This document shows, in pieces, positions 5,882-19,617 of a DNA stretch of 52,005 nucleotides (position 1 is the stretch's first letter; each line of letters opens with the position of its first letter). The position numbers and the translations under genes were made by a program. A model generated the notes under the pieces. The model was given only the letters and a program-made list of their open reading frames with translations. It was not told where the DNA came from and ran no database searches. The stretch is from Pseudomonadota bacterium. GTDB lineage: Bacteria > Pseudomonadota > Gammaproteobacteria > Steroidobacterales > Steroidobacteraceae. The stretch lies in assembly GCA_025357635.1 (NCBI GenBank), contig JANXOV010000066.1, forward strand, positions 1-52,005, read 5' to 3'.

Positions 5882-6667
5882 ATGTCGGCTAGCAATGCGT
5901 TGGAAGTTCTGGTGCAGGCACTGAGCAGCGGGTCGGTCAGGGTGGTGGATCTGACGGTCCCCTTGCAGCCTTCCACACCCGTCATCAAGCTGCCGGAAAT
6001 GTTTGCGCCCTCCAAGCCGTTTGCGTTGGAGGAAATCTCCCGCTACGACCATCGCGGGCCGGCCTGGTACTGGAACAACATCAGCTGCGGCGAGCACACC
6101 GGCACGCACTTCGATGCGCCCATTCACTGGGTGACCGGCAAGGACTATCCGAACAATGCCACGCACAACATTCCGGTGGAACGTTTCATCGGTCCGGCCT
6201 TCGTCATCGACGTGGCCAAGGAAGTGGCCGCGAATCCGGACTTCCTGCTGGACCGCGACGGCGTGCTGAGCTGGGAAAAGCGGCACGGCAGGATATCCCC
6301 GAAATCCTGGGTGCTGGTGCGCACCGACTGGTCCAAGCGCCCGAATGCAGAGGCCTATCTCAACATCAAGGACGACGGTGCGCACACGCCGGGCTTCCAC
6401 AAGTCCGCGGTCACTTTTCTTGCCGAGGAACGCGACGTGCTCGGCGTCGGCGTGGAAACCGTGGGCACCGATGCCGGCCAGGCGCCAACCTTCGACCCGA
6501 TGTTTCCCTGCCATACGCTGATGCATGGCAGCAATAAGTTCGGGCTTGCGAGCCTCATGAATCTGGATCAATTGCCGCCCACGGGTGCGGTGGTGATCGC
6601 GCCGCCGTTGAAGATTGTGAACGGCTCGGGCAGTCCGCTGCGGGTGCTGGCGCTGATCCCCGGTTGA
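5882..6667 (+). CDS. Cyclase-family metal hydrolase, isatin hydrolase-like (or kynurenine formamidase-like)
   Basis: The 261-residue protein carries the cyclase-family metal site HTGTHFDAP (His72, His76, Asp78), the PAWYWNNI segment ahead of it and GVGVETVGTDAG plus PCHTLMHG later. Both kynurenine formamidase and isatin hydrolase use this manganese/zinc site. The length, the ITMGEHTG-like approach to the metal site and the C-terminal LDQLPPTGA ... IAPPLKI run remind me more of isatin hydrolases (about 260 residues) than of KynB (about 210 residues). The expected reaction is opening of an aryl lactam: isatin + water -> isatinate. Neighbours fit: a convergent MarR gene 26 bases downstream, then an IorAB pair whose substrate could be isatinate, a 2-oxoacid. 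Ribosome binding site GGAG lies just upstream at 5871. The isatin assignment is inference. Confidence 0.7.
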   Translation: MSASNALEVLVQALSSGSVRVVDLTVPLQPSTPVIKLPEMFAPSKPFALEEISRYDHRGPAWYWNNISCGEHTGTHFDAPIHWVTGKDYPNNATHNIPVERFIGPAFVIDVAKEVAANPDFLLDRDGVLSWEKRHGRISPKSWVLVRTDWSKRPNAEAYLNIKDDGAHTPGFHKSAVTFLAEERDVLGVGVETVGTDAGQAPTFDPMFPCHTLMHGSNKFGLASLMNLDQLPPTGAVVIAPPLKIVNGSGSPLRVLALIPG

Positions 6668-6693
6668 CAGCGCCGCCTGAGCGCAGCGGCCGC

Positions 6694-7200
6694 TCAGGAG
6701 CTGAAGTTCAGATTGGCAAACGCCCGGCGCAGCAATGCGTTGAGGGTTTGTATTTCCTGGGATGAAAAATCGTGAAACGCCAGGCGGTAAATGCGGCTGG
6801 CGCACTCGCGCACGCGTTCCACGGCCGCATGACCTTTGTCGGTGAGCATGACATCTGTTTTGCGGCCATCGCTCTTGCGGCTTGCGAGCCGTACCAGACC
6901 CTGCTTTTCCAGGCGCTGCACCACGCGCGTCACGGTGGACAGCTGGATGACGGCGCGTTCGGCGATTTCCGAGACGCTGCTGGGGTTCTGCTCGCGCAGG
7001 ATCATCAACGCACGCCAGCGCGGAATGTCCATGCCCACCGACTTGAGGATGCGCTGCATGTCGATGGCATAGCGGCCGCTGGTGCGCGCAATCAGGTAGA
7101 ACGGGGAGTCATCGAGCACGAAGCGCTCGCAGGCCGGATCGCCGCGGCGCTTGGCATCGCGCGCGGCTCGGGAGCGCTTGGCGGGTGGTCTGGCTGGCAT
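6694..7200 (-). CDS. MarR-family transcriptional regulator, divergent from iorAB-like genes
   Basis: A 168-residue winged-helix regulator. A basic N-terminal tail (about 20 residues, rich in Arg/Lys/Ala) precedes dimerisation helices, the recognition helix (IAERAVIQLSTVTRVVQRLEKQG) and a wing with RKSDGRKTDVMLTDKG. MarR proteins of this kind usually repress aromatic-catabolism operons and are released by an aromatic acid or acyl-CoA. The gene is divergent from the IorA-like gene with 132 bases between them, holding a palindrome inside a promoter (7249-7284), so it likely controls both that operon and itself. It ends 26 bases from the cyclase stop codon, which it faces. Confidence 0.88.
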   Translation of the reverse strand: MPARPPAKRSRAARDAKRRGDPACERFVLDDSPFYLIARTSGRYAIDMQRILKSVGMDIPRWRALMILREQNPSSVSEIAERAVIQLSTVTRVVQRLEKQGLVRLASRKSDGRKTDVMLTDKGHAAVERVRECASRIYRLAFHDFSSQEIQTLNALLRRAFANLNFSS

Positions 7201-7248
7201 GGCTCCATACTGACATTTTTTGCGGCGCGCGCAAGCCGGACCGAACCT

Positions 7249-7284
7249 GTCATTACTTGACTTTTCACGTGAATGTCATAGGGT
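7249..7284 (+). promoter_or_regulatory. Candidate promoter and MarR operator for the iorAB-like operon
   Basis: A TTGACT -35 box (7257-7262) and a TAGGGT -10-like box (7279-7284) are separated by 16 bases. Between them lies a perfect 10-base palindrome, TTCACGTGAA (7264-7273), where a bound dimer would block polymerase. A second short inverted pair, GTCA/TGAC, sits at 7249-7261, and TGACATT at 7211-7217 is the inverse of AATGTCA at 7272-7278. The site lies in the gap between a divergent MarR gene and the IorA-like gene. The assignment rests on position and symmetry only. Confidence 0.45.
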
Positions 7285-7332
7285 AGCGGCGAGTCTTCCC
7301 CGCCGTGATCCGCAGCTTGAAAGGGGTTCGCC

Positions 7333-9474
7333 TTGGCCGAGCGCTCGTTTGCAAAAGAAGTTCAATCCTTGCGGCTTGAAGCCGGCGCACTGTTCGAAGG
7401 CGAGGGCATTCTCGCCGTCACCAAGGCACTGCTGCAATCCGGCGTCGGCTACGTGGGCGGCTATCAGGGCGCTCCGGTGTCGCACCTCATGGACGTGCTG
7501 GCGGACGCCAATGACATCCTCGCCGAACTGGGCGTGCGTTTCGAGTCCTCGGCCAGCGAAGCCACCGCGGCGGCCATGCTCGCAGCGTCGGTCAACTATC
7601 CGATTCGCGGCGCCGTCACCTGGAAGTCCACGGTGGGCACCAATGTCGCCTCCGATGCGCTGTCCAATCTGGCCTCCGCCGGGGTGATCGGCGGGGCGCT
7701 CATCGTGCTGGGCGAGGACTATGGCGAGGGCGCCAGCATCATGCAGGAGCGCACGCACGCCTTCGCAATGAAGTCGCAGATGTGGCTGCTGGATCCGCGG
7801 CCGAATCTGCCGTGCATCGTGCAGGCGGTGGAGCAGGGCTTCGAATTATCCGAAGCGAGCAACACGCCGGTCATGCTCATGATGCGCATCCGCGCCTGTC
7901 ATGTGGTGGGGCGCTTCAAGGTCAAGGCCAACCGCCGTCCGCCCTTCACGCTGCAGCAGGCCATGGACCATCCCAGCCGCACCTTCGACAAGATCATCCT
8001 GCCGCCCTCGACCTACGCGCAGGAACGCGCCAAGATCGAACATCGCTGGCCGGCGGCGGTGAAGTACATTCGCGATCGCCAGCTGAACGAGTTTTTCCCG
8101 GCTGATTCGGCCGATGTGGGCATCGTCATGCAGGGCGGGCTGTACAACACGGTGCTGCGCTCGCTCGAGCGTCTGGGTCTGGCGGACGTGTTCGGCAATT
8201 CGAAGATTCCGCTGTACGTTTTGAACGTCACCTACCCGCTCATTCCGGAAGAATTCGTGCAGTTCGCCCATGGCAAGCGCGCCATCCTGATCGTGGAGGA
8301 AGGGCAGCCGGAATTCATCGAACAAGCCGCCAGCCTGTTTCTGCGGCAGGCCGATGTGCAGACGCGCATCGCCGGCAAGGGGCCGCTGCCGCTCGCCGGT
8401 GAGTACACGGGCGCCGTGGTGCTGGCGGGGGTGCGCAAGTTCTTGTCCGAGTACGGACATTTACCCGAACAGACCAAGCCCTTGCTGCCCGCCGCGGCAC
8501 TCATGTCCGCGCCCGTAGCTACGCCCGTAGCCACGCCCGTAGCCAATGTGCCCATGCGTCCGTCCGGATTGTGCACGGGTTGTCCCGAGCGCCCGCTGTT
8601 CGCCTCCATGAAGCTGGTGGCGCGCGAACTCGGCCCCATGCAGGTCAGCGCCGACATCGGCTGCCATTCGTTTGCCACCCTGCCGCCCTTCGACATCGGC
8701 GGCAGCATCATGGGCTATGGCCTGGGGGCGGCCGGCGGCGCATCGTTCAACATGCCGAACAAACGCCGTGCGCTGTCGATGATGGGCGATGGCGGCTTCT
8801 GGCACAACGGCCTCACCAGCGGCATCGGCAATGCCGTGTTCAACCGCCACGATGGCGTGACCATCATCGTCGACAACGGGTACTCGGCCGCCACGGGCGG
8901 CCAGTACATTCCCTCCTCGACGGTTGAAATCAAGGGCCGGCGCGCGAAGAACCGCATCGAGACCGCGGTGCGTGGCGTCGGTGTGGAATGGGTGCGCACC
9001 ATCCGCACCTACGATATGAAACAGACCATGTCGGTGCTGAAAGAAGCGCTGCAGACTCAATTCATCGGTCCGAAGATCATCATCGCCGAGGGCGAATGCC
9101 AGTTGAACCGGCAGCGGCGCGTCGCGCCGGCGATCAGGAAAATGATCGGCGCCGGCAAACGCGTGGTGCGCGAGCGCTTCGGCATCGACGCCGACATCTG
9201 TACGGGTGATCACTCCTGCGTGCGGCTGTCGGGTTGTCCGTCGCTCACCATCAAGACCCATCCGGATCCGCTGCGCCGCGACCCGGTGGCGCACGTCGAC
9301 AACAGTTGCGTGGGCTGCGGCGTGTGCGGCGAGGTGGCGCATGCGGCCGTGCTGTGTCCCTCGTTTTACCGGGCTGAGGTCATCGTCAACCCGACGGCCT
9401 GGGACCGCATCCTGCACCGCTTCCGTGCCGCGGTGATTCGCCTGCTGAGCGGCCCGCCCGCAAAAGAGGCTTAA
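7333..9474 (+). CDS. Indolepyruvate ferredoxin oxidoreductase alpha-like subunit (TPP, Fe-S)
   Basis: A 713-residue thiamine-diphosphate enzyme of the 2-oxoacid oxidoreductase family. The N-terminal pyrimidine-binding domain begins with LFEGEGILAV and GGYQGAP; the TPP motif GDGG (residues 485-488) runs to VDNGYSAATGG. The C terminus holds two Fe-S cysteine sets: one starting at Cys623 (CTGDHSC ... GC) and a ferredoxin-like CxxCxxC set starting at Cys659. An alanine/proline/valine linker of three repeats lies near residues 394-405. The family oxidatively decarboxylates aryl 2-oxoacids to aryl-acyl-CoA, passing electrons to ferredoxin or another acceptor. The start is TTG at 7333 with AAAGGGG 7 bases upstream. 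The beta subunit follows after 4 bases. Its likely substrate here, isatinate, is inferred from neighbours. Confidence 0.85.
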   Translation: MAERSFAKEVQSLRLEAGALFEGEGILAVTKALLQSGVGYVGGYQGAPVSHLMDVLADANDILAELGVRFESSASEATAAAMLAASVNYPIRGAVTWKSTVGTNVASDALSNLASAGVIGGALIVLGEDYGEGASIMQERTHAFAMKSQMWLLDPRPNLPCIVQAVEQGFELSEASNTPVMLMMRIRACHVVGRFKVKANRRPPFTLQQAMDHPSRTFDKIILPPSTYAQERAKIEHRWPAAVKYIRDRQLNEFFPADSADVGIVMQGGLYNTVLRSLERLGLADVFGNSKIPLYVLNVTYPLIPEEFVQFAHGKRAILIVEEGQPEFIEQAASLFLRQADVQTRIAGKGPLPLAGEYTGAVVLAGVRKFLSEYGHLPEQTKPLLPAAALMSAPVATPVATPVANVPMRPSGLCTGCPERPLFASMKLVARELGPMQVSADIGCHSFATLPPFDIGGSIMGYGLGAAGGASFNMPNKRRALSMMGDGGFWHNGLTSGIGNAVFNRHDGVTIIVDNGYSAATGGQYIPSSTVEIKGRRAKNRIETAVRGVGVEWVRTIRTYDMKQTMSVLKEALQTQFIGPKIIIAEGECQLNRQRRVAPAIRKMIGAGKRVVRERFGIDADICTGDHSCVRLSGCPSLTIKTHPDPLRRDPVAHVDNSCVGCGVCGEVAHAAVLCPSFYRAEVIVNPTAWDRILHRFRAAVIRLLSGPPAKEA
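8511..8546 (+). repeat. Three tandem 12-base units inside the IorA-like gene
   Basis: Three copies of a 12-base unit (core CGCCCGTAGC) encode the peptide PVAT repeated as A-PVAT-PVAT-PVAN. They form the flexible linker between the central domain and the TPP-binding domain. Being in frame and a multiple of three bases, copy number can vary without a frameshift. Confidence 0.8.
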
Positions 9475-9478
9475 GATC

Positions 9479-11014
9479 ATGGCGGCTGCGCAACGGCCCA
9501 TCACCTTGTCCATCGCGGCCCTGGGCGGGCAGGGCGGCGGCGTGGTCACCGATTGGCTGGTGCTGGCGGCGCGGCGCGCCGGCTACATCGTTCAGGCCAC
9601 CTCGGTTCCCGGCGTTGCGCAGCGGACCGGCGCGACCATCTACTATCTGGAATTCTTTGCGCAAAGCGCGCTGGGCGCGGACGGGCGTGAACCCATCCTG
9701 GCATTGATGCCCAGTCCCGGCGATGTGGATATCGTGGTCGCATCGGAATGGGTCGAGGTGGGCCGGGCCATCAATCGCGGCCTGGTCACGCCGGACCGCA
9801 CCACGCTCATCGCCTCCACGCACCGCGACTACACCATCAGCGAAAAAATGGCGCTGGGCGATGGCCGGGCAAATTCACAGAACATTCTGGCGGGAGCCAC
9901 GGCCGCCGCAGCCAGGCTCATCGCCTTCGACATGGCGGCCATCGCCGAGAAGTCCGGCGGCCGCATCAGCGCCGTCATTTTCGGCGCGATTGCCGGCGCC
10001 GGCGTGCTGCCCTGGACGCTGGAACATTTTCACGAGGCGATCCGCGAATCGGGCATCGGTGTGGAGCCCAGCCTGGCCGCGTTTGAAGTGGGCCGGCAGG
10101 CGGCGCTCGCGGCTATTGGGGGCGGGCTGGCGACAGTGATACCCGCTGCCGGGGAGGCTCAGAGTCCGGCAGCGCCGTTCTCCACTGCGCTGGCCGCCGC
10201 GCTGCGCCAGCGCATCGCGGCGCAGTTCCCGGCCGAGTTGCAGGGCGTGCTGAGCCGCGCCGCGGCGCGGCTTTCGGACTATCAGGACGCAGCGTACGCA
10301 TCGCTGTTCCTGGAGCGGGTGGCGCAGATCCTCGCGCTGGAGACCCCGGGGCGCGGCTCGGCGCAGCTCACCGCGGTCACGGCGCGTTCACTGGCCTTGT
10401 GGATGAGTTTCGAGGACGTGATCCGCGTGGCGCAGGTCAAGACGCGTGCGGGCAGGCCGGAGCAGATCCGCCAGGAAGTTCGGGCCAATCCGGGTGAGCT
10501 TGTGCGGGTGAGTGAGTTCGTCAAGCCGCGCGTGGAGGAGATCTGCGCGACGCTCCCCGCCGGACTCGGCCGGTTCATGCTCGGCTCCACGCGCGCAAAG
10601 CGCATCCTGTCGTGTTTCACCGCAGGACGTCAGATACCCACCTCCCGCATCGGCGGATTCGCGCTGCTGCGCTGCATCGCGGGATTGCGGCGGTTCCGTC
10701 GCGCGACGCTGCGCTTTCAGACCGAACAAGAGCGCATCGAACTCTGGCTGCAGCAGATCCGCAGTGTCGCCGCGGCAGATTATGCGCTGGCGGTGGAGAT
10801 CGCCGAGTGCCAGAACCTGGTCAAGGGCTATGGCGACACGCACGAGCGCGGCTGGCGATCCTTCTCGGAAATCTGCGCGCTGGCCGCAGGCCTTGCGGGC
10901 ACGAGCAAGGGCGCACAACAGCTGCGCGCGCTGCGCGAGGCCGCCCTGGCCGACGATACCGGCGCCAGACTCGGGCAGGCCATCGCCGGTTTGAAGCTGT
11001 CCGCGTCGGTTTGA
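9479..11014 (+). CDS. Indolepyruvate ferredoxin oxidoreductase beta-like subunit with C-terminal DUF6537
   Basis: A 511-residue partner of the preceding gene. Residues about 10-190 form the pyruvate-ferredoxin-oxidoreductase gamma-type domain (AALGGQGGGVVTDWL, then SVPGVAQRTGAT), which in the family binds CoA and completes the active site. Residues about 245-490 are an alpha-helical, arginine-rich extension of the DUF6537 type often fused to IorB homologues in aerobic proteobacteria. Canonical archaeal IorB is only about 200 residues. The 4-base spacing to the alpha gene implies translation as one complex. The reaction expected is 2-oxoacid + CoA -> acyl-CoA + CO2 with release of electrons. 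The natural electron acceptor is not evident in the window. Confidence 0.85.
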   Translation: MAAAQRPITLSIAALGGQGGGVVTDWLVLAARRAGYIVQATSVPGVAQRTGATIYYLEFFAQSALGADGREPILALMPSPGDVDIVVASEWVEVGRAINRGLVTPDRTTLIASTHRDYTISEKMALGDGRANSQNILAGATAAAARLIAFDMAAIAEKSGGRISAVIFGAIAGAGVLPWTLEHFHEAIRESGIGVEPSLAAFEVGRQAALAAIGGGLATVIPAAGEAQSPAAPFSTALAAALRQRIAAQFPAELQGVLSRAAARLSDYQDAAYASLFLERVAQILALETPGRGSAQLTAVTARSLALWMSFEDVIRVAQVKTRAGRPEQIRQEVRANPGELVRVSEFVKPRVEEICATLPAGLGRFMLGSTRAKRILSCFTAGRQIPTSRIGGFALLRCIAGLRRFRRATLRFQTEQERIELWLQQIRSVAAADYALAVEIAECQNLVKGYGDTHERGWRSFSEICALAAGLAGTSKGAQQLRALREAALADDTGARLGQAIAGLKLSASV

Positions 11015-11058
11015 GGCGGGCGCGCGCCTCTCATCCGCCGCTGGTGCTTTGGGTCTGG

Positions 11059-11078
11059 ATATTTTAGACTTCAAATAT
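11059..11078. promoter_or_regulatory. Candidate MarR operator upstream of the anthraniloyl-CoA monooxygenase-like gene
   Basis: The AT-rich inverted repeat ATATTT (11059-11064) and AAATAT (11073-11078), with an 8-base spacer, stands out in GC-rich surroundings 22 bases before the start codon at 11100. Size and symmetry suit a MarR dimer, and a second MarR gene lies within this operon. A TTGACA at 11078-11083 is too close to the start to be this gene's -35 box. The binding role is inference. Confidence 0.4.
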
Positions 11079-11099
11079 TGACATATAGGTGTATGCCGT

Positions 11100-13382
11100 A
11101 TGAAACGAATCGTGTGCATGGGCGGCGGCCCTGCCGGCTTGTACTCCGCCATACTCTTCAAGAAGGCGCTCCCCGGGGCGCGCATCGAAGTGTTCGAGCG
11201 CAATCAGCCGGACGACACCTTCGGCTGGGGCGTGGTGTTTTCCGACAAGACCATGGGGAATTTCCAGGAAGCGGACGCTGAATCGCACGGCCGCATCGTG
11301 GATGACTTCTACCATTGGGACGACATCGACGTGCACTTCAAGGGCCAGATGGTGCGCTCCGGCGGTCACGGCTTTGCGGGCATATCGCGCAAGAAGCTGC
11401 TGAACATTCTGCAGGAGCGCGCGGCGCAGCTGGGGGTTGTGCAGAGCTTCCAGGCCGAACTCGACGACGATGCGGCATTCGAGGACGCGGACCTGGTGGT
11501 CGTTGCCGAGGGCGTCAACAGCAAGACGCGCGCGCGGCATGCCGATGTGTTCGAGCCCGACATCGATGTGCGCAAGTGCCGCTTCATCTGGCTGGGAACC
11601 ACCCAGAAGTTCAAAGCTTTCACCTTTGCATTCGAGAAGACCGAGCACGGCTGGTTCCAGATACACGCCTATCAGTTCAGCAAGGACCTTTCCACCGTCA
11701 TCGTGGAAACGCGCGAGGAGACCTGGGCCGCGCATGGACTGGACAGCGCCAACACCGACCAGTCCATCGCATTCTGCGAAAAGCTGTTCGCAAAATACCT
11801 GGGCGGCGCGCCGCTCATTTCCAACGCCAGGCATCTGCGCGGTTCGGCCTGGTTGAATTTCAACCGGGTGGTGTGCCGGCGCTGGCATGACGGCAAGCGC
11901 GTGCTCATCGGCGATGCAGCACACACCGCGCATTTCTCCATCGGCTCCGGCACGAAGCTGGCGATGGAGGATGCCATTTCGCTGGTGCATCACCTGAGTC
12001 ACGCCGGCGATGTTGACGCGGGGCTGCTGACGTATCAGAACGAGCGCAGCATCGAGGCGCTGAAGCTGCAGAACTCCGCGCGCAACCGCATGGAATGGTT
12101 CGAAAACATCGGCCGCTACGAAAATCTGCAACCGCTGCAGTTCACCTACAGTCTGCTCACCGGCAGCCAGCGCATCGGCCATGCGAATCTGAAGCTGCGC
12201 GATGCGAAGTTCATCGAGCGCGTGGAGCAGGATTTGGCGCAGCGGCATCAGGTGACCGGGTCGCGGCCGCCCATGTTCCTGCCTTTGCGTCTGCGCGACA
12301 TGCCATTGGTCAATCGCGTCGTGGTCTCGCCCATGGCGCAGTACCGCGCGCGGGACGGCGTGCCGGGCGACTGGCATCTGGTGCATTACGGCGCCCGCGC
12401 CACGGGCGGCGCCGGCTTGCTGTTCACGGAGATGACCTGCACCTCGGCGGATGCCCGCATCACTCCGGGCTGCACCGGGTTGTGGAATGATGCGCAGAGG
12501 GTCGGCTGGCGCCGGATCGTGGATTTCGTGCACGCCGAATCCGACGCGCGCATCTGTCTGCAGATCGGGCATGCGGGCCGCAAGGGATCGACGCAGGTGG
12601 GCTGGGAGCAGGCCGATCATCCCTTGCCCAAGGACAACTGGCCGCTGTGGGCGCCTTCAGCCTTGCCCTACCTGCCAGGCATCAGCCCGGTGCCGCAGGC
12701 CCTGGACCGTGCGCGCATGCAGGCCATCACCCAGGATTTCGTCAAGTCTGCGCAATTGGGCGCCGCCGCCGGATTCGACATGCTGGAACTGCACATGGCG
12801 CACGGCTATCTGCTGGCAAGTTTTCTGTCACCGCTGACCAACCAGCGCCTGGATGAGTACGGCGGCTCAGTCGCCAATCGGCTGCGTTTTCCGCTGGAAG
12901 TTTTGCAGGCGGTGCGGACGGCGTGGCCGTCGCAGAAGCCCTTGAGTGTGCGCATATCGGCCAGCGATTGGGCGCCGGGCGGCTTGAGCGAGACGGATCT
13001 GCTGCAGATCGCACGCGCGCTGGTGGCTGCCGGCGCCGACGTTCTGGACATTTCCTCCGGTCAAACCGTGCCCACCCAGAAGCCGGTGTATGGCCGGATG
13101 TGGCAGACGCCTTTTTCCGACATGCTGCGCAATATGCTGAATGTCCCGACCATCGCCGTGGGCAACATCTTCGAGGCTGATCACGTGAATTCCATCGTGG
13201 CCGCGGGCCGTGCGGATTTGTGCGCCATCGCTCGTCCGCATCTGGCAAATCCGTCCTGGACCTTGCAGCAGGCCGCGGCGCAAGGCTATGGCCCGCAGCA
13301 TTGGCCTGATCCTTACAAGTCCGCCAAGGGACAGCTGGAGCGCAATCTCGAACGCGCCGCAGCGTTGGTGGGGCCGGTATGA
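11100..13382 (+). CDS. Bifunctional anthraniloyl-CoA (2-aminobenzoyl-CoA) monooxygenase/reductase-like flavoprotein
   Basis: A 760-residue fusion of two flavoenzymes. Residues 1-385 are an FAD aromatic-ring hydroxylase (GGGPAGLYSA near residue 8, GWGVVFSD, IGDAAHTAHFSIGSG). Residues about 390-755 are an Old-Yellow-Enzyme/NADH:flavin oxidoreductase domain (LVNRVVVSPMAQY, QIGHAGRKGS near 487, ELHMAHGYLLASFLSP). The same architecture and length are known from 2-aminobenzoyl-CoA monooxygenase/reductase of Aromatoleum/Azoarcus, which hydroxylates and then hydrogenates the ring, giving 2-amino-5-oxocyclohex-1-enecarbonyl-CoA. Database labels often read salicylyl-CoA 5-hydroxylase. No CoA ligase gene is in the window, so the thioester presumably comes from the IorAB-like complex next door. 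The SDR gene starts inside its stop codon (ATGA). Confidence 0.85.
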   Translation: MKRIVCMGGGPAGLYSAILFKKALPGARIEVFERNQPDDTFGWGVVFSDKTMGNFQEADAESHGRIVDDFYHWDDIDVHFKGQMVRSGGHGFAGISRKKLLNILQERAAQLGVVQSFQAELDDDAAFEDADLVVVAEGVNSKTRARHADVFEPDIDVRKCRFIWLGTTQKFKAFTFAFEKTEHGWFQIHAYQFSKDLSTVIVETREETWAAHGLDSANTDQSIAFCEKLFAKYLGGAPLISNARHLRGSAWLNFNRVVCRRWHDGKRVLIGDAAHTAHFSIGSGTKLAMEDAISLVHHLSHAGDVDAGLLTYQNERSIEALKLQNSARNRMEWFENIGRYENLQPLQFTYSLLTGSQRIGHANLKLRDAKFIERVEQDLAQRHQVTGSRPPMFLPLRLRDMPLVNRVVVSPMAQYRARDGVPGDWHLVHYGARATGGAGLLFTEMTCTSADARITPGCTGLWNDAQRVGWRRIVDFVHAESDARICLQIGHAGRKGSTQVGWEQADHPLPKDNWPLWAPSALPYLPGISPVPQALDRARMQAITQDFVKSAQLGAAAGFDMLELHMAHGYLLASFLSPLTNQRLDEYGGSVANRLRFPLEVLQAVRTAWPSQKPLSVRISASDWAPGGLSETDLLQIARALVAAGADVLDISSGQTVPTQKPVYGRMWQTPFSDMLRNMLNVPTIAVGNIFEADHVNSIVAAGRADLCAIARPHLANPSWTLQQAAAQGYGPQHWPDPYKSAKGQLERNLERAAALVGPV

Positions 13383-14164
13383 GCGATGCCGGGTCCTTGA
13401 ATGGGCGGCACGCCTTGGTGACGGGCGCGGGGCGCGGCATCGGCGTCAGCATTGCGCGCCGGCTCGCGGCCTGCGGCGCCAAGGTGACGCTGCTGGGACG
13501 GACGGCGGCGACGCTGGAGTCGGTTGCGAATGAACTCAAAGCGGCGGGTGCGCAGGCGCATTGCGTGGTCGCGGACGTGAGCAAGCGGGAATCGGTCGAT
13601 GCGGCTTTCGCCGCCGCGCGCGCGGTGTTCGGCGGCATCGACCTGCTGATCAACAACGCCGGCCAGGCCGGCAGCGCGCCCATCACCAAGCGCGACGATC
13701 AGCTGTGGAACGGGCTGCTCGCGATCAATCTCACCGGCACGTATTTCTGCATTCAGGCAGCGCTGCCGGAAATGATGAAGAACAACTTCGGCCGCATCGT
13801 CAACATCGCAAGCACGGCCGGCCTGACCGGCTACGCCTATGTCGCAGCCTACTGCGCCGCCAAGCACGGCGTGGTCGGACTGACGCGCGCGGTGGCGCGC
13901 GAGGTGGCCAGCCGCAACATCACCGTGAATGCCGTGTGTCCCGGTTACACGGATACCGACATCGTGCAGGACGCCGCCCGGAAAATCGCCGCCGTCACCG
14001 GGCGCAGCATCAGCGATGCAGTGCAGGTGATGGCCAAGACCAATCCGCAGGGCCGCTTGATTCAGCCCGAGGAGGTCGCCAACACGGTCGCGTGGCTGTG
14101 CATGCCGGGGAGTGAGTCGATCACGGGGCAAAGTATTGTCGTTGCCGGTGGAGAGTTGATGTGA
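13379..14164 (+). CDS. Short-chain dehydrogenase, probable hydroxyacyl-CoA dehydrogenase
   Basis: A 261-residue classical SDR with the NAD(P) motif TGAGRGIG near residue 16, NNAG, catalytic serine in IASTAG, the YxxxK pair in YCAAK and a C-terminal ITGQSIVVAGG. It oxidises or reduces a secondary alcohol/ketone. In this operon the likely job is a 3-hydroxyacyl-CoA dehydrogenase step after ring opening. It overlaps the preceding fused flavoprotein by 4 bases and the following MarR gene by 4 bases (GTGA), so the three are translationally coupled. The exact substrate is inferred from context. Confidence 0.85.
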   Translation: MSDAGSLNGRHALVTGAGRGIGVSIARRLAACGAKVTLLGRTAATLESVANELKAAGAQAHCVVADVSKRESVDAAFAAARAVFGGIDLLINNAGQAGSAPITKRDDQLWNGLLAINLTGTYFCIQAALPEMMKNNFGRIVNIASTAGLTGYAYVAAYCAAKHGVVGLTRAVAREVASRNITVNAVCPGYTDTDIVQDAARKIAAVTGRSISDAVQVMAKTNPQGRLIQPEEVANTVAWLCMPGSESITGQSIVVAGGELM

Positions 14165-14706
14165 GCGCGCGCGCCGCGCGCAGCGACCGTGCGCCGGGCC
14201 GCCGGCCGCCGGGGCGCCGGCCGTTGGACCGCCGGCCGTTGGACCTTGAATCCCGTCTGACGCAAGATCATCACGATTCACTGCGATTGTGGCTGCGTCT
14301 GCTCACCTGTTCGAATCTGATTCAGGTGCGCGTGCGCAAGGCCATGGCATCGCGCTTCAACACCACGCTGCCGCGCTTTGATCTCATGGCGCAGCTCGAG
14401 CGCGCGCCGGAGGGCCTGCAGATGGGCGAGCTGTCGCGGCGCATGCTGGTGACCGGCGGCAACGTCACGGGAATCGCGGATCAGCTGGAGCACGCCGGCC
14501 TCGTGGTGCGCGCGGCGGACCCGCATGACCGGCGCGCCTATCGCATCAAGCTCACGCGTGAGGGGCGGCGGGTGTTCGAGCAGATGGCCATCGAGCACGA
14601 GCGATGGATCGTGGGCATGTTCGAAGGCTTGAATGCGCGCGACAAGCGTGCGATGAATGAGTTGTTGTCACGGCTGCGCGTGTGTTTGCGGCAAGGCGAG
14701 GAATGA
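14161..14706 (+). CDS. MarR-family regulator inside the operon, with Arg/Pro repeat N-terminal tail
   Basis: A 181-residue MarR protein starting with GTG inside the SDR stop codon. The first 38 residues are an unusual low-complexity tail containing three five-residue units, [15 protein letters not shown]. Helices and the wing follow: [22 protein letters not shown] is the recognition helix region, and [16 protein letters not shown] the wing. It resembles the MarR repressors of CoA-dependent aromatic pathways, which respond to aryl-CoA thioesters. Being co-transcribed with its putative targets suggests autoregulation; the AT-rich palindrome at 11059-11078 is a candidate site. Without the tail the protein has the usual family length (about 145 residues). 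Confidence 0.85.
14201..14245 (+). repeat. 15-base tandem repeat, three copies, at the start of the second MarR gene
   Basis: The unit GCCGGCCGTTGGACC occurs exactly twice in direct tandem (14216-14230 and 14231-14245). A degenerate copy (11 of 15 identical) lies at 14201-14215. Each copy encodes five residues, giving the RRPxx pentapeptides of the MarR tail. Confidence 0.85.
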
Positions 14707-15530
14707 TGGACGTAGGCAGGCAGAGTTTGAGCGCTTACCAGGCAAAGCATTTTCTGTGGGAAATGCAGGGGCAGGTCGGCTGGATCACGTTGAACCGCCC
14801 GGAGCGGAAAAACCCGCTGACCTTCGACAGCTACGCGGAGTTGCGCGATTTGTTCCGCCGCCTGCCGTATGCAACCGACGTCAAGGTCATCGTGCTGACC
14901 GGCGCCGGCGGCAATTTCTGCTCAGGCGGTGACGTGCATGAAATCATCGGTCCGCTGACGCGCATGAGCATGCCGGAGCTGCTGGATTTCACCCGCATGA
15001 CCGGCGATCTGGTCAAAGCCATGCGCGGTTGTCCGCAGCCCGTCGTGGCGGCGGTCGACGGCATCTGCGCCGGCGCCGGCGCCATCATGGCCATGTGCGC
15101 CGACATCCGTCTGTGCACGCCGGCATCCAAGACGGCATTTTTGTTCACGCGCGTTGGACTGGCGGGCTGCGACATGGGTGCATGCGCGATTCTGCCGCGC
15201 ATCATCGGCCACGGCCGCGCCGCCGAATGGCTTTTCTCCGGACGCAGCGTGCCGGCGGAGGAAGCGCTGGCCTGCGGGTTTTTCAGCCGTGTGGTGAGCG
15301 CGGATGAATTGCATCCGGCCGCCCGGCAGCTGGCGCAGAACTTGAGCGAAGGCCCGACGTTCGCGCATGGCATCACCAAGACCATGCTCAATCAGGAGTG
15401 GAACATGGGGCTGGATCAGGCCATCGAGTCCGAAGCGCAGGCGCAGGCGCTGTGCATGAAGACCGAGGATTTCCGCCGCGCCTTCGAGGCGTTCGCCGCC
15501 AAACAGCGTCCCGTCTTCAAGGGGAATTGA
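14703..15530 (+). CDS. Crotonase-superfamily protein lacking the enoyl-CoA hydratase glutamates; possible ring-opening hydrolase
   Basis: A protein of 275 residues from the ATG at 14703, which overlaps the MarR stop (ATGA) and has GGCGAGGA just ahead; the next codon, 14706, is also ATG and equally possible. The crotonase fold is clear: [28 protein letters not shown], and [14 protein letters not shown] for the oxyanion hole. By hand alignment with rat enoyl-CoA hydratase, Glu144 is replaced by Ile128 and Glu164 by a non-acidic residue (Arg or Phe). An aspartate, Asp157 in AGCDMG, stands where 4-chlorobenzoyl-CoA dehalogenase has its nucleophile. It is therefore unlikely to be a simple hydratase. 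In this pathway a BadI-like hydrolysis of a cyclic beta-keto thioester would fit. The superfamily assignment is firm, the reaction is inference. Confidence 0.82.
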
Positions 15531-15531
15531 G

Positions 15532-16725
15532 ATGCGGCTCGCTTCGCACACGGACTGGCCCTTTTTCGACGCGCCGCATCGCGAACTGGCGCAGCACATC
15601 GGCGCCTGGGCGCAATCCGAACTCGGGCATGAGCATCCGGCAGCCTGCGATGCGGTGGATGCGCATTGCCGTGCGCTGGTCCGCCGTCTGGGCCAGGCAG
15701 GCTTCACCCGCTATTGCGTGCGCAAGGAGTTCGGCGGCGCGCTGCAGGAGTTCGACGCCCGCGCCATCGGGTTGATCCGCGAGACGCTCAGCTTTCACGA
15801 CGGCCTGGCAGATTTTGCCTTCGCCATGCAAGGCCTGGGCAGCGGTGCGCTGTCCCTCGCCGCCGAACAGCCGCTGCAGCAGCGTTATCTTCCGCGCGTG
15901 GCGGCCGGCACCGCCATTGCCGCCTTCGCGTTGTCGGAGCCTGATGCGGGGTCCGATGTCGCCGCCATGCAGATGACGGCGCGCAAGTCCGGTTCTGATT
16001 ATGTGCTCGACGGCCAGAAGACCTGGATATCCAACGGCGGCATTGCCGACTTTTATTGCGTGTTCGCGCGCACCAGCGCCGGCGAGCGCCGCGCCAACGG
16101 CAGCGTCGGCGCGCAGGGCATTTCCGCGTTCGTCGTCGATGCCGAGACCCCGGGGCTGCGCGTGGCCGAGCGCATCGAATTGATCGCGCCGCACCCGATG
16201 GCACGGCTGGTGTTCGAGAATTGCGTGATCCCGAAAGAACAGAGAATCGGCGCCGAGGGCGAGGGATTCAAGATCGCGATGCGCACGCTCGATGTGTTTC
16301 GCAGCACCGTGGCGGCTGCTGCCGTCGGCTTCGCGCGGCGCGCGCTGGCGGAGGCGCTGAGCCACACGCAGCAGCGGCGCATGTTCGGCGGCACACTGTC
16401 CGACTTCCAGCTCACGCAGGCGGCGCTCGCCGACATGGCGACGCAGATCGATGCGGCGGCGCTGCTGACCTATCGCGCGGCGTGGCTGCGCGACCGCGGC
16501 AAGCCGGTGACGCGCGAAGCGGCCATGGCCAAGCTCACCGCGACGGAATCGGCGCAGTGGATCATCGATCGTGCGCAGCAGATGTTCGGCGGCCGCGGCG
16601 TGGTCAGCGGCGAGGTGCTTGAGCGCCTGTACCGCGAAATTCGCGCGCTCAGGATCTACGAAGGAGCCAGCGAAGTGCAAAAGCTCATCATCGGCCGCGA
16701 TCTACTCACGGGGAAATCCGCATGA
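15532..16725 (+). CDS. Acyl-CoA dehydrogenase
   Basis: A 397-residue acyl-CoA dehydrogenase of normal length. It shows [13 protein letters not shown] (FAD/substrate region), [18 protein letters not shown] and the catalytic loop IYEGASEVQ with the base Glu377. It introduces an alpha,beta double bond into an acyl-CoA, passing electrons to ETF. One base separates it from the crotonase gene and it overlaps the Rid gene by 4 bases, so it belongs to the same operon. A dicarboxyl-CoA such as oxopimeloyl-CoA or glutaryl-CoA would be a sensible substrate after ring opening, but the sequence alone does not decide chain length. Confidence 0.9.
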
Positions 16726-17174
16726 TTCACGACGTGTTGCAGCCGCCGGAGTGGCCGCGCCCGAAGGGTTATTCGAACGGCATCGCCGCGCGCGGCCGGC
16801 TGGTGTTCATCGCCGGCCAGATCGGCTGGGACGCACAGGGAAAATTCGACAGCGACACGCTGGCCGGACAGGTGCGTCAGGCGCTGAGCAATATCATGCA
16901 AGTGCTGGCGCAGGCCGGCGGCACGCCGGAACATCTGGTGCGGCTCACCTGGTTCGTGCTCAGCCGCGAGGCCTACTATCAGGAATTGCGTGAGATCGGC
17001 GCCGGTTACACGGCCGTGCTGGGCCGGCACTTCCCCACCATGTCGGTGGTGCAGGTCAGCGCCTTGATGGAAAAGCAGGCGCTGGTGGAGATCGAGGCCA
17101 CGGCTGTCATTCCCGATGTAGCCACCGACTCCACCATCAAGCTTCCCATCCATGGCCACGTGGCGTCCGCCTGA
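16722..17174 (+). CDS. Rid (YjgF/YER057c/UK114) family protein lacking the RidA arginine
   Basis: A 150-residue Rid-family protein: [22 protein letters not shown], then [27 protein letters not shown] and the C-terminal VEIEATAV strand. RidA proper deaminates 2-imino acids and needs an arginine (Arg105 in E. coli) that binds the substrate carboxylate. By hand alignment that position is Met107 here ([13 protein letters not shown]). It therefore belongs to one of the other Rid subfamilies and may hydrolyse an enamine/imine without a free alpha-carboxylate. An aminocyclohexenyl-CoA thioester made by the fused flavoprotein upstream would be such a substrate. The downstream oxidoreductase gene starts within its last 23 bases. 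Confidence 0.85.
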
Positions 17175-18597
17175 GCGGATCAAGTACGCGCCTCTGCAGG
17201 CGCCCTGGCCCGACGCTCGCGAGGCGGCGCAGTCGCGGCTGTTCACGCCGATAAAGGTTGGCGCGCTGACGCTCGCCTCCCGCACCTGGGTGCCGGCGAT
17301 GGTGCCCTGGCGCGCCTCGGAAGAGGGCGAGGTCACCCCCGATGTCCTGGCATGGTACGAGCGTTTCGCTCGCGGACGGCCGGGAGCCCTGGTGGTCGAA
17401 GCCACCGGTGTGCGCGACGTGCCCAGCGGTCCGCTGCTGCGCATCGGTCACGACCGCTTCCTGCCGGGCTTGTGGGAATTGACCGAGCGGGTGCGCTGCG
17501 CCAGCCAGGGTGAGACCAAACTTTTCATTCAGATCATCGATTTCCTCAATGTGCGGCGCCGTCCCACGCGCGAGAAGTTTCTTCAGCGGCATTTGCTGAT
17601 CACCGACCGGCACCGCGAATTTCTGCGGCTTGCCGATATGCCGGAGGATGCGGTGCGCGCCGCCCTCGCTCAGCTCGATGATGATCAACTGCAGCAGGCG
17701 CTGACTGCGCGCGACTGGGAGTCGCTTCAGAAGGGATTTCGCGAGCGTGTCACGGATGTCGAGGTGCCTGCGGTGCGTGACTTGCCCAAGACCCTGCCCG
17801 GCAGCTTCGCGGCTGCCGCCGGGCGCGCCAAACGCGCCGGGTTCGACGGCGTCGAACTGCACTATGCGCACGCATACACCATGGCATCGTTCCTGTCAGC
17901 CCTAAACACCCGCGGCGATGGCTACGGCGGTGCGCGTGAACAGCGCGTGCGGCTGCCGCTGGAGGTGTATGCGGCCGTGCGCGCAGCGGTGGGCGCGGAC
18001 TACACGGTGGGATGCCGCTTGCTGTCCGAAGACTGCATCGACAACGGCAGCAGTGTCGAGGACGCTGAATATTTTTCCTGCCGCTTCGCCTCAGCCGGCA
18101 TGGACTTCATCTCACTGTCGCGCGGCGGCAAATTTGAAGATGCCATGCAGCCCAAGGTGGGCGAGGCGGTTTATCCGTATACCGGACGCAGCGGCTATGA
18201 ATGCATGCCCTCGTATTACTCGGATGCCAAAGGGCCCTTTGGACGCAATCTCGAGCCGGCCACGCGTATCCGGCGCGCGTTACGCGCCGCCGGCCTGCAG
18301 ACTCCCACCGTGCTTGCCGGCGGCATCCATCATTTCCGCCAGGCTGAGGAGGCATTGCTGCACGGTCAGGCCGATATCGTGGGCCTCGCGCGCCAGGCAT
18401 TGGCGGACCCGGATTGGTTCGCGAAGGTGAAGAACGGGCAGGGCGCGCAGGTACGTCTGTGCCTGTACACGAATTACTGCGAGGCGCTGGACCAACGCCA
18501 TCGCCAGGTGACCTGCGAGCTGTGGGACCGGTTGAACCTGGACGAGCCCGGCGTGATGCTCTCCAGCGACGGCAAGCGGCGGCTGATCCCGCCTTAG
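17152..18597 (+). CDS. Old-Yellow-Enzyme-type NADH:flavin oxidoreductase
   Basis: A 481-residue FMN-dependent TIM-barrel reductase. It has LFTPIKVGALTLASRTWVPAM at the N terminus, ELHYAHAYTMASFLS in mid-barrel, RLPLEVYAAVRAAVG, and a C-terminal PTVLAGGIHH ... DIVGLARQALADPDW phosphate-binding region. It lacks the Fe-S and FAD domains of full-length 2,4-dienoyl-CoA reductase. Compared with the OYE half of the fused protein at 11100 it has a longer insertion around residues 115-215. It is the last gene of the aromatic operon and overlaps the Rid gene by 23 bases. A role in reducing an unsaturated or oxo intermediate of the same pathway is likely; the exact one is not visible. Confidence 0.82.
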   Translation: MATWRPPERIKYAPLQAPWPDAREAAQSRLFTPIKVGALTLASRTWVPAMVPWRASEEGEVTPDVLAWYERFARGRPGALVVEATGVRDVPSGPLLRIGHDRFLPGLWELTERVRCASQGETKLFIQIIDFLNVRRRPTREKFLQRHLLITDRHREFLRLADMPEDAVRAALAQLDDDQLQQALTARDWESLQKGFRERVTDVEVPAVRDLPKTLPGSFAAAAGRAKRAGFDGVELHYAHAYTMASFLSALNTRGDGYGGAREQRVRLPLEVYAAVRAAVGADYTVGCRLLSEDCIDNGSSVEDAEYFSCRFASAGMDFISLSRGGKFEDAMQPKVGEAVYPYTGRSGYECMPSYYSDAKGPFGRNLEPATRIRRALRAAGLQTPTVLAGGIHHFRQAEEALLHGQADIVGLARQALADPDWFAKVKNGQGAQVRLCLYTNYCEALDQRHRQVTCELWDRLNLDEPGVMLSSDGKRRLIPP

Positions 18598-18665: not shown

Positions 18666-19106
18666 ATGAAGCTGTCGATACGGCGCATTGGAAACTCCCT
18701 CGGCGTCATTCTTCCCAAAGCCACGCTTGAGGGATGGGGGCTGGGTGAGGGTGATACCCTTGAGTTGAACGATCGGGGCGTGCAGGTTGCGCCGCGCGCC
18801 GGATTTTCTCATGTCGAGTTGGACGAACTGAAGCGAAGCATCGCGATGGCCGTCATTCGCGATTTTTCCACACAGCAAATCCGTGCGCAGATCCTCGCTA
18901 ATCTGCATCGCTGGAAGAACCAGGGAATGTGGGTTTCGGCTTACGATGAATGGCAGGAACTTGCGAGCGGCGCGACAGATGGCGCCCTGTTCGCCGTCAT
19001 GCTCGGCCGTGATGATGCGGCCGTGAGGCTCAGGCAGTCGATGCCGTTTGTCGGATTGCTGCAACCGGCACAGCTGAAGCGGATGTATGACGAAGCAACA
19101 GGTTGA
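18666..19106 (+). CDS. AbrB/MazE-type antitoxin with long C-terminal extension
   Basis: A 146-residue protein. Residues 1-48 match the swapped-hairpin AbrB fold (MKLSIRRIGNSLGVILPKATL ... GDTLELNDRGVQVAP), the DNA-binding part of MazE-like antitoxins. Residues 50-146 form a helical extension with aromatic residues (RWKNQGMWVSAYDEWQEL), probably the toxin-neutralising part. The next gene, a nucleotidyltransferase, starts 20 bases before this one ends, the tight overlap common in toxin-antitoxin pairs. Autoregulation through the twin octamer upstream is likely. An alternative is a chromosomal regulator unrelated to a toxin, but the linkage argues against it. Confidence 0.75.
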   Translation: MKLSIRRIGNSLGVILPKATLEGWGLGEGDTLELNDRGVQVAPRAGFSHVELDELKRSIAMAVIRDFSTQQIRAQILANLHRWKNQGMWVSAYDEWQELASGATDGALFAVMLGRDDAAVRLRQSMPFVGLLQPAQLKRMYDEATG

Positions 19107-19617
19107 TCATGTGCTGCGCGCGGCGGGCAGAATCACGGGCGAGAAGCAATTCGTCATCATTGGCAGCCAGTCTTTGCACGGAAAACACCCGGATCTGGCG
19201 GATGACCTCGTGCTGTCCGCCGAAGTCGACCTGATTGCAACCAAGCACGCGGATCGGACCGAATGGCTGAATGCCATTGGCGTGCACTCTCAGTTTCATG
19301 AGAGTTTTGGATACTACGCGGACCCCGTTGATGAAACGACTGCGATCCTGCCTGATGGGTGGAAGGCGAGATTGGTGAACCTGCCGCCCGGCGATACAGA
19401 CGGCGTGCGCGGCCTGTGTCTGGATCCGCATGATCTGGCGATTGCCAAGTATGTTGTCCGTCGCGACAAGGATATCGCCTTCAATCGGCAGTTGGTTCGC
19501 CGCAGGATCATCGCCCGCAGAAAACTGCTCGCGTTGCTCGATAAGACACCCGTTGATGAACCCTCGCAGCAGCGGATCCGAGCCTACATTGCGCAGGATT
19601 TTGACGAAGCGCGCTGA
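19087..19617 (+). CDS. Nucleotidyltransferase-fold protein, probable toxin (DUF6036-like)
   Basis: A 176-residue protein with a minimal nucleotidyltransferase signature: FVIIGSQSLHG (the G-S of the family) followed about 20 residues later by SAEVDLIA, whose acidic residues are the expected metal ligands. Then comes a helical C-terminal half with LDPHDLAIAKYVVRRDKD, a pattern seen in DUF6036/AbiEii-like proteins. Such proteins act in toxin-antitoxin or abortive-infection pairs, for example by adding nucleotides to tRNA in the MenT group. The gene overlaps the antitoxin by 20 bases. The toxin role is inferred from pairing; the fold call is moderately sure. Confidence 0.65.
   Translation: MTKQQVDHVLRAAGRITGEKQFVIIGSQSLHGKHPDLADDLVLSAEVDLIATKHADRTEWLNAIGVHSQFHESFGYYADPVDETTAILPDGWKARLVNLPPGDTDGVRGLCLDPHDLAIAKYVVRRDKDIAFNRQLVRRRIIARRKLLALLDKTPVDEPSQQRIRAYIAQDFDEAR

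Follow-up and report, generated by a model that had tools for sequence, protein, structure and literature searches.

A gene cluster of a Steroidobacteraceae bacterium predicted to degrade isatin through coenzyme A thioesters without ligation of free anthranilate

Introduction

How could isatin enter a coenzyme A (CoA)-dependent ring-opening pathway when no anthranilate-CoA ligase is encoded next to the enzymes of that pathway? The question is raised by a gene cluster at positions 5882 to 18597 of contig JANXOV010000066.1 (assembly GCA_025357635.1, family Steroidobacteraceae); the whole stretch of 52,005 nucleotides is referred to here as the window. The cluster combines an isatin hydrolase homologue, both subunits of an IorAB-type 2-oxoacid oxidoreductase, and genes of the aerobic 2-aminobenzoyl-CoA (abm) pathway. 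Judging from its gene content, it likely degrades isatin through CoA thioesters, with no ligation of free anthranilate. A route from isatin to a ring-opened CoA ester had been proposed in the initial annotation of this DNA, and it is supported by the gene neighborhoods of related IorB proteins, by the joint occurrence of IorB and the fused flavoprotein of the abm pathway (ABM), and by a search that revealed no close ligase homologue, with the reaction of IorAB itself being a prediction.

In the proposed route, isatin hydrolase would open isatin to isatinate (2-aminophenylglyoxylate), and IorAB would oxidatively decarboxylate isatinate and transfer the acyl group to CoA, giving 2-aminobenzoyl-CoA (anthraniloyl-CoA). 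The fused flavoprotein would hydroxylate and reduce this ester to 2-amino-5-oxocyclohex-1-ene-carboxyl-CoA, after which the Rid-family protein, the crotonase, the SDR dehydrogenase, and the acyl-CoA dehydrogenase, in a presumed order, would deaminate, open, and oxidize the ring, with the old-yellow-enzyme (OYE)-type reductase as an accessory. Isatin hydrolysis and the ABM chemistry have been reported for homologous enzymes (PMC6117287, PMC3534580).

Gene families were assigned by profile searches with Pfam and with NCBI/TIGR models that have curated cutoffs. Each of the families named in the initial annotation (hydrolase, IorAB, fused flavoprotein, SDR, crotonase, acyl-CoA dehydrogenase, Rid, and OYE) was recovered in this way between positions 5882 and 18597, although its list had omitted two MarR genes (6694-7200 and 14161-14706). 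All enzyme genes of the cluster are on the plus strand, and several neighbors overlap by a few bases. The gene set is more than a chance assembly, because it recurs, differently arranged, in three other genomes.

Isatin hydrolase

The first gene of the cluster (5882-6667, plus strand) codes for a cyclase-family protein (PF04199, 138.6 bits) that is closest to isatin hydrolases: it matches the PDB sequences 5nmp (338 bits), 5nna and 5nnb (328 bits each), and 4j0n (275 bits), as against 30.4 bits or less for kynurenine formamidases. Kynurenine formamidase could be ruled out on these scores and on that of TIGR03035 (36.7 bits versus a cutoff of 223). In the characterized enzyme LaIHA, manganese is reported to be bound by His69, His73, and Asp75, and His79, His207, and Trp59/Trp61/Trp80 are listed in addition (PMC6117287); all of these positions are matched in the window protein. 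The HxGTHxD motif occupies residues 72 to 78 of the window protein (HTGTHFD), and the alignment matches the Mn-binding and the Asp-His catalytic or proton-transfer residues of LaIHA in this motif, the next His-Trp, the Asp of TDAG, and a late His; the departures are Gln219 to Ala, as in LaIHB, and Tyr204 to Phe. With the metal site conserved, the protein can be predicted to hydrolyze isatin, as had been suggested for it.

IorAB oxidoreductase

The IorA-like subunit (7333-9474, plus strand, TTG start) comprises the thiamine diphosphate half of the enzyme and a ferredoxin-type cluster domain; the IorB-like subunit (9479-11014, plus strand) combines a POR domain (PF01558) with DUF6537 (PF20169) and scores 625.8 bits against NF006179/PRK08312 (cutoff, 348). 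A GDG-X27-N thiamine diphosphate motif at residues 485 to 515 of IorA, a CxxCxxC-X9-C cluster motif at residues 659 to 675, and the POR domain together mark the pair as a 2-oxoacid:acceptor oxidoreductase. IorA is 59 to 65% identical to five plasmid homologues and 63 to 64% identical to IorA of five Variovorax loci (L022, L025, L032, L038, and L040), and IorB is the sole match in its genome at an E value of 1e-20 or better. A PDB sequence search at an E value of 0.01 returned no match to either subunit.

Phenylglyoxylate:acceptor oxidoreductase, a multisubunit enzyme from an anaerobe, oxidatively decarboxylates an aryl 2-oxoacid with CoA to yield an aroyl-CoA. The window IorAB is best explained as converting isatinate and CoA to anthraniloyl-CoA, because it belongs to a CoA-ester-forming family and is encoded between isatin hydrolase and a consumer of aminobenzoyl-CoA in a genome in which the search revealed no close ligase homologue; substrate and product are both deduced from this context.

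Alternatively, IorAB could be an ordinary indolepyruvate (arylpyruvate) oxidoreductase that supplies arylacetyl-CoA to upstream auxin or tryptophan breakdown, in which case the proximity of isatin hydrolase would reflect shared induction and anthraniloyl-CoA would come from an unrecognized ligase. The homologues are annotated as indolepyruvate oxidoreductases, the family models are so named, and the iad loci of auxin degradation, which encode close relatives, handle an indole acid. However, IorA scores only 267.6 bits against IOR_alpha (TIGR03336), the equivalog model for indolepyruvate ferredoxin oxidoreductase, far under its cutoff of 650.9 bits, and this explanation appears improbable in light of the neighborhoods described below.

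Genomic neighborhoods of IorB

A scan of a genome collection with IorB matched at least 594 stretches, at least 474 of them encoding relatives, and the best 80 loci, which lean to close relatives, were kept. Neighborhood content was called with reference proteins and fixed thresholds (at least 50% identity for isatin hydrolase) in flanks of 10 kb or up to the contig end. Isatin hydrolase was found in 48 of the 80 loci (45 of the 63 that span at least 15 kb), the Rieske auxin oxygenase in 29, ABM in 18, and a close homologue of anthranilate-CoA ligase in 2. A custom profile recognized a divergent cyclase-type hydrolase in 5 further loci, of which L029 and L080 were also checked against Pfam. 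Of the 48 loci with isatin hydrolase, 18 have it no more than 1 kb and 23 no more than 2 kb from iorAB; the distance is 3.8 to 9.2 kb in the other 25, which are mostly of the iad type with oxygenase and ligase genes in between. With these 48 hydrolases and the 5 divergent ones, the clusters do not consistently hold a different substrate-defining gene. Indolepyruvate oxidoreductase was set aside as the principal function, given that isatin hydrolase is the commonest recognized partner (48 loci versus 29 for the Rieske oxygenase) and that ABM tracks IorB across genomes. The generalization that IorB always means isatin was also ruled out: in 27 of the 80 loci, the stretch examined contains no cyclase-type hydrolase, many of these stretches being truncated.

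The loci fall into several types. In those of the window type (L019, L023, and L048), the genes for ABM (69 to 70% identical to the window ABM), SDR, the second MarR, crotonase, acyl-CoA dehydrogenase, and Rid are divergent from those for isatin hydrolase, IorA, and IorB, whereas the enzyme genes of the window all run one way; OYE is present in L019 and L023 and absent from the stretch of L048 examined. In a quick tree of 82 IorA rows, the window groups with these three loci and L059 and L072 in a supported six-row set. The iad-type loci (Variovorax, Achromobacter, and Bradyrhizobium) usually contain MarR, IorA, IorB, a reductase, a Rieske pair, and an IadF-type ligase, with isatin hydrolase. 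The third type consists of IorA, IorB, a thioesterase, ABM, a gentisate-dioxygenase-like cupin, and FAH, and most of its loci also have isatin hydrolase. In the fourth, IorAB is combined with isatin hydrolase, but abm and Rieske genes are both missing (Sulfitobacter L016, as well as L021, L026, L027, L031, and L051). The existence of the fourth type argues against an indolepyruvate oxidoreductase serving upstream auxin breakdown, as does the absence of a Rieske auxin oxygenase from the stretch examined in 12 of the 14 loci where IorAB and isatin hydrolase occur together with abm genes.

A thioesterase gene follows iorB in 9 of the 80 loci, 8 of which have isatin hydrolase, and this position fits a CoA product of IorAB. 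It would equally suit an enzyme pair that takes isatinate but has its product hydrolyzed to anthranilate for tryptophan synthesis or other pathways, with ABM being fed separately. Anthranilate is the end product reported for iad loci (PMC9613470, PMC11630574, PMC12633357), and three loci (L034, L044, and L062) have IorAB, a thioesterase, and isatin hydrolase with no ABM in the flank. In the window, however, profile searches detected no thioesterase family match among the cluster genes, ABM directly follows IorB, and no close ligase homologue was found in the genome to reactivate anthranilate, so that such a detour is unlikely there.

In the third type, the loci L013 (12809-25195), L036, L041, L043, L055, and L060 encode IorAB, the thioesterase, ABM, the gentisate 1,2-dioxygenase-like cupin, FAH, nitrilase-like proteins, and isatin hydrolase; L028 has the same thioesterase/cupin set with no isatin hydrolase in the stretch examined, and some of these loci carry an additional arylmalonate-decarboxylase-like gene. 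The cupin scores 330 bits against TIGR02272, below its cutoff, and 563 bits against 3bu7. L036 and L043 come from Alcaligenaceae. Alcaligenes has been reported to degrade indole-3-acetate via anthranilate to gentisate, as cited in PMC8383072, and the gene for the gentisate branch had not been revealed according to PMC6221969. The thioesterase/gentisate-dioxygenase-like set is a candidate for a second lower route that fits this branch.

For loci without isatin hydrolase, longest-open-reading-frame calls gave many wrong-strand frames in the G+C-rich DNA, and only frames with Pfam hits were used. Among the 26 such loci of at least 11 kb that lack a close isatin hydrolase, 10 (L052, L057, L058, L067, L075, L076, L079, L095, L096, and L097) have in common a protein family represented by a TRAP transporter large subunit. 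Eight of the 10 fall into one 16-row set of the quick IorA tree (SH-aLRT support, 89) that also includes the isatin hydrolase locus L051. IorAB of this part of the tree probably has another substrate, since its members are without isatin hydrolase and often linked to TRAP transporters; this may be an imported aryl 2-oxoacid. On a Variovorax boronicumulans plasmid (L015, 13806-19989), IorAB is encoded beside a flavin mononucleotide-dependent alpha-hydroxy-acid oxidase and an ABC importer, a pairing that suggests an aryl 2-oxoacid derived from a mandelate-like acid.

Co-occurrence of IorB and ABM

The association was also seen at the genome level, in a sample of 369 genomes drawn evenly from the class to which the window belongs, its own genome included. 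IorB (E value of 1e-20 or better) was found in 16 of these genomes, ABM (1e-100 or better) in 17, and isatin hydrolase in 6, at a limit of 300 bits that was set post hoc from the gap between 309 and 142 bits. With kinship ignored throughout, ABM was present in 11 of the 16 genomes with IorB and in 6 of the 353 others (Fisher's P = 1e-13); for IorB scores above 420 bits, a limit also chosen post hoc, the respective fractions were 11/12 and 6/357 (P = 4e-16, or 8e-15 without the window genome). IorB and the ABM flavoprotein thus go together. In five of the six isatin hydrolase genomes, that gene is on the IorB contig, at most 5 kb away; in the sixth (G340, 71% complete), no IorB was seen.

Of the genomes behind the 80 IorB loci, 46 were picked by hand (20 of the iad type, 8 of the fourth type or with a thioesterase, 15 without a close isatin hydrolase, and 3 of the window type), and 45 of them encode ABM at an E value of 1e-100 or better, a few of these being partial or split; the exception is G407. 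The other 34 were left out, mostly as short loci or because abm genes had already been seen there, along with L074, L082, L085, L092, and L093.

ABM and the lower pathway

The fused flavoprotein (11100-13382, plus strand), with FAD_binding_3 and Oxidored_FMN domains, scores 1222 bits against NF006101, above its cutoff, and is the monooxygenase/reductase fusion typical of the abm pathway; it is the only match in its genome at an E value of 1e-100 or better. The same fusion is reported to act on 2-aminobenzoyl-CoA in Azoarcus evansii and Arthrobacter sp. Rue61a (PMC3534580). NCBI names this model bifunctional salicylyl-CoA 5-hydroxylase/oxidoreductase, and the model leaves the choice between amino and hydroxy substrates undecided. 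That name, like the locus variant with a gentisate-dioxygenase-like cupin, would suit an oxygen analogue of the route, in which 2-hydroxyphenylglyoxylate or a related aryl 2-oxoacid gives salicyl-CoA for hydroxylation by the flavoprotein. Such a substrate is very unlikely, as the hydrolase is closest to isatin hydrolases, the Rid protein suits an enamine intermediate, and the Limnohabitans locus L101 combines ABM, SDR, crotonase, acyl-CoA dehydrogenase, and Rid with a ligase nearest to the benzoate-CoA ligase family (below cutoff).

The genes that follow would complete the predicted degradation of 2-aminobenzoyl-CoA. The SDR dehydrogenase (13379-14164, plus strand; PF00106, 214.9 bits) is a recurrent neighbor of ABM. 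The crotonase-family enzyme (14703-15530, plus strand), which had been called atypical, fits its own subfamily, scoring 480.5 bits against NF006107/PRK08258 (above cutoff), with 3g64 (241 bits) as its best match of solved structure; it is a probable catalyst of the ring-opening or hydration step. It is followed by acyl-CoA dehydrogenase (15532-16725, plus strand; PF00441, 158.2 bits) and the Rid-family protein (16722-17174, plus strand; PF01042, 83.9 bits). The latter deserves the label atypical given to it: in the alignment, Met takes the place of the Arg in the P-A-R-S motif of YabJ, which we take to be catalytic. Rid is a candidate for enamine hydrolysis. The last gene codes for the OYE-type reductase (17152-18597, plus strand; PF00724, 127 bits in three stretches), whose homologues (62 to 66% identity) occur in the ABM neighborhoods of L019, L023, L080, L092, L153, and L160; it is proposed to be a part-time companion of ABM and an accessory reductase. 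In L080 (797-21485), from a metagenome-assembled genome of Woeseia, genes for IorAB, SDR, crotonase, acyl-CoA dehydrogenase, Rid, ABM, and OYE are joined by one for a hydrolase that is a divergent member of the cyclase family; the locus also encodes an aldehyde dehydrogenase-MaoC fusion beside an AMP ligase.

Anthranilate-CoA ligase

The abm pathway starts with an anthranilate-CoA ligase. In L101, which has no IorAB, the order is ABM, SDR, crotonase, acyl-CoA dehydrogenase, AMP ligase, and Rid; in the window, by contrast, isatin hydrolase and IorAB stand in place of the ligase, and profile searches revealed no ligase gene between 5882 and 18597. When the L101 ligase was searched against the window genome, the top-scoring hit was 33% identical over 342 residues, apart from a single 125-residue fragment at 36%; among the matches listed, which for G412 comprise 7 of 8 rows, the best values in the three other genomes of the window type are 36% (G412), 31% (G413), and none at an E value of 1e-35 (G414). 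The four genomes therefore have no full-length homologue above 36% identity among these matches, which is consistent with the claimed skipping of the ligase in genomes of this type. In the stretches examined, a ligase was found in none of the 14 loci that combine isatin hydrolase with IorAB and abm genes, as compared with 2 of the 6 that have the latter two without isatin hydrolase. Of the six genomes in the class sample that have ABM but no IorB, four encode a ligase (53 to 73% identity) beside ABM, and two (G086 and G340) do not.

Relation to auxin degradation

Genes iadA and iadB, which encode IorAB, have been described as exclusive markers of the iad auxin loci, whose pathway runs through isatin and isatinic acid (PMC9613470, Conway et al.). 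The initial annotation had drawn attention to MarR-controlled iad-type loci that pass through isatin and anthranilate. Loci of this type occur in Variovorax paradoxus CL14, Achromobacter, and Bradyrhizobium japonicum (related loci L022, L025, L063, and L089). The likeness to the cluster extends to iorAB as iadA/iadB, to the MarR gene adjoining iadA (6694-7200 in the window), and to the isatin-hydrolase-like IadI, according to the available text on these loci; in the window, however, the abm ring-opening genes adjoin the isatin part, and the iadDE oxygenase and side-chain genes are on other contigs. The end of contig C56 (1-2278) encodes a pair of Rieske subunits and the first part of an IadF-like ligase, which are 74 to 75% (iadDE) and 66 to 69% identical, respectively, to those of Variovorax L022 and L025. 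Contig C113 (141058-145958) carries genes for a thiolase, an OB-fold/SDR fusion, and a second isatin hydrolase that are 64 to 75% identical to Variovorax genes in the same order (iadGHI-like); they are preceded by a lactate-permease-family gene. Given the iadDEF-like genes on C56 and the iadGHI-like genes on C113, the route from indole-3-acetate to isatinate is probably encoded in this genome, and indole-3-acetate would then be the probable source of isatin. The anaerobic iaa pathway of Aromatoleum also ends at 2-aminobenzoyl-CoA (PMC9613470) but is encoded by a different locus (iaaABC...).

The use of IorAB had been regarded as the novel part of the route. The pairing itself is not new, since IorAB is found beside isatin hydrolase in the iad loci already described (PMC9613470); what appears unassigned is its reaction. 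No reaction of IadA or IadB is named in the available portions of PMC9613470, PMC10374108, and PMC11630574, the main text of PMC12633357 nowhere uses the names iadA and iadB, and a conversion of isatinate to anthraniloyl-CoA by IorAB was not found stated in the accessible open-license literature on isatin or isatinate, CoA, and oxidoreductases. According to a 2025 preprint (PMC12633357), C8H7NO3 and C7H7NO accumulate in strains overexpressing iadC-K2, and C8H7NO3 does so in a whole-locus deletion that overexpresses these genes. By the gene order given in PMC9613470, the latter strain should lack iadAB. C8H7NO3 is the formula assigned to isatinic acid in PMC8383072, and we infer that it is isatinic acid in this strain as well; its appearance in the absence of iadAB fits the action of IorAB on isatinate. 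In PMC8383072, the names iadA and iadB are applied, in the part available, to a cluster homologous to the iac genes, so that the mutants in that work have no bearing on IorAB.

A broader proposal, somewhat less secure than the route in the window and still rather more plausible than its negation, is that IadA/IadB is an isatinate oxidoreductase that acylates CoA, with anthraniloyl-CoA as the true product of aerobic iad breakdown and free anthranilate as a leak. There would be two lower routes, the abm genes (as in the window, where the ligase has been lost) and the thioesterase/gentisate-dioxygenase-like set of Alcaligenaceae, Burkholderiaceae, and some others. Root bacteria that degrade auxin alter root growth, and inhibition of root growth is reportedly reversed more effectively by the iad type of locus (PMC12633357). 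The proposal would assign a function to the two iad marker genes, which are left without a reaction in the available published accounts. If it holds, the end product of iad breakdown shifts from anthranilate to a CoA ester, an ATP-dependent ligation is saved, auxin breakdown is joined to the aerobic hybrid CoA pathways, and engineered strains with only iadC-K2 are predicted to accumulate isatinate.

Conflicting observations

Several observations weigh against the route and its generalization. The association tests took no account of kinship. A fifth type of locus has IorAB relatives without isatin hydrolase, and along the IorA tree this gene switches between present and absent at least 11 times; even L072, in the window's own subclade, has no isatin hydrolase in 21.6 kb. 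G314 encodes isatin hydrolase and IorB with no ABM at an E value of 1e-100. Other genomes have both IorAB and the ligase: in G202, which encodes isatin hydrolase, IorAB, and ABM, a 52% identical ligase is located ∼4.6 kb past ABM, and IorAB, ABM, and the ligase also occur together in L053, L090, and L155. Of seven genomes in the class sample with IorB and ABM (G014, G087, G093, G107, G120, G202, and G214), four (G014, G087, G107, and G202) encode a ligase within the cluster or close by; for the other three, the ABM stretches are cut short by the end of the contig. A ligase is also present in 23 of 38 ABM neighborhoods from the hand-picked IorB genomes, and 13 of the 15 genomes with ligase-free neighborhoods encode a homologue (49% identity or more) elsewhere, perhaps a benzoate-CoA ligase, leaving only G376 and G406 without one. 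In the window genome, other AMP-dependent ligases at 25 to 33% identity, besides the fragment mentioned above, leave some room for the unrecognized ligase of the indolepyruvate alternative, and a distant one (at most 33% over most of its length) could act on anthranilate. This genome also encodes kynureninase, so that anthranilate can arise in another way. Finally, iadC-K2 restores anthranilate to a strain from which the entire locus has been removed (PMC12633357), which implies that IadAB is not needed for free anthranilate and that the latter has another origin.

The idea that a ligase-free pathway goes with IorAB everywhere was ruled out by the IorAB genomes that have a ligase, such as G202 and those behind the 23 neighborhoods. 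Because the ligase is present in many IorAB genomes, its loss characterizes the window type and a small number of other genomes, as opposed to IorAB genomes in general.

Regulators and adjacent genes

The first MarR gene (6694-7200, minus strand; PF01047, 52.1 bits) is divergent from iorA, and many iad-type loci have a MarR gene at the same place. The iorA promoter region between the two genes (7201-7332), delimited by reading the DNA, contains an imperfect inverted repeat, TGACTTT-N7-AATGTCA (7258-7278), a possible MarR operator. The second MarR gene (14161-14706, plus strand; PF12802, 48.8 bits) lies within the abm gene set and is recurrent between the SDR and crotonase genes. Directly behind the cluster (18666-19617), a gene with a MazE-antitoxin domain is followed by one for a DUF6036 nucleotidyltransferase-like protein, possibly a toxin-antitoxin-like pair.

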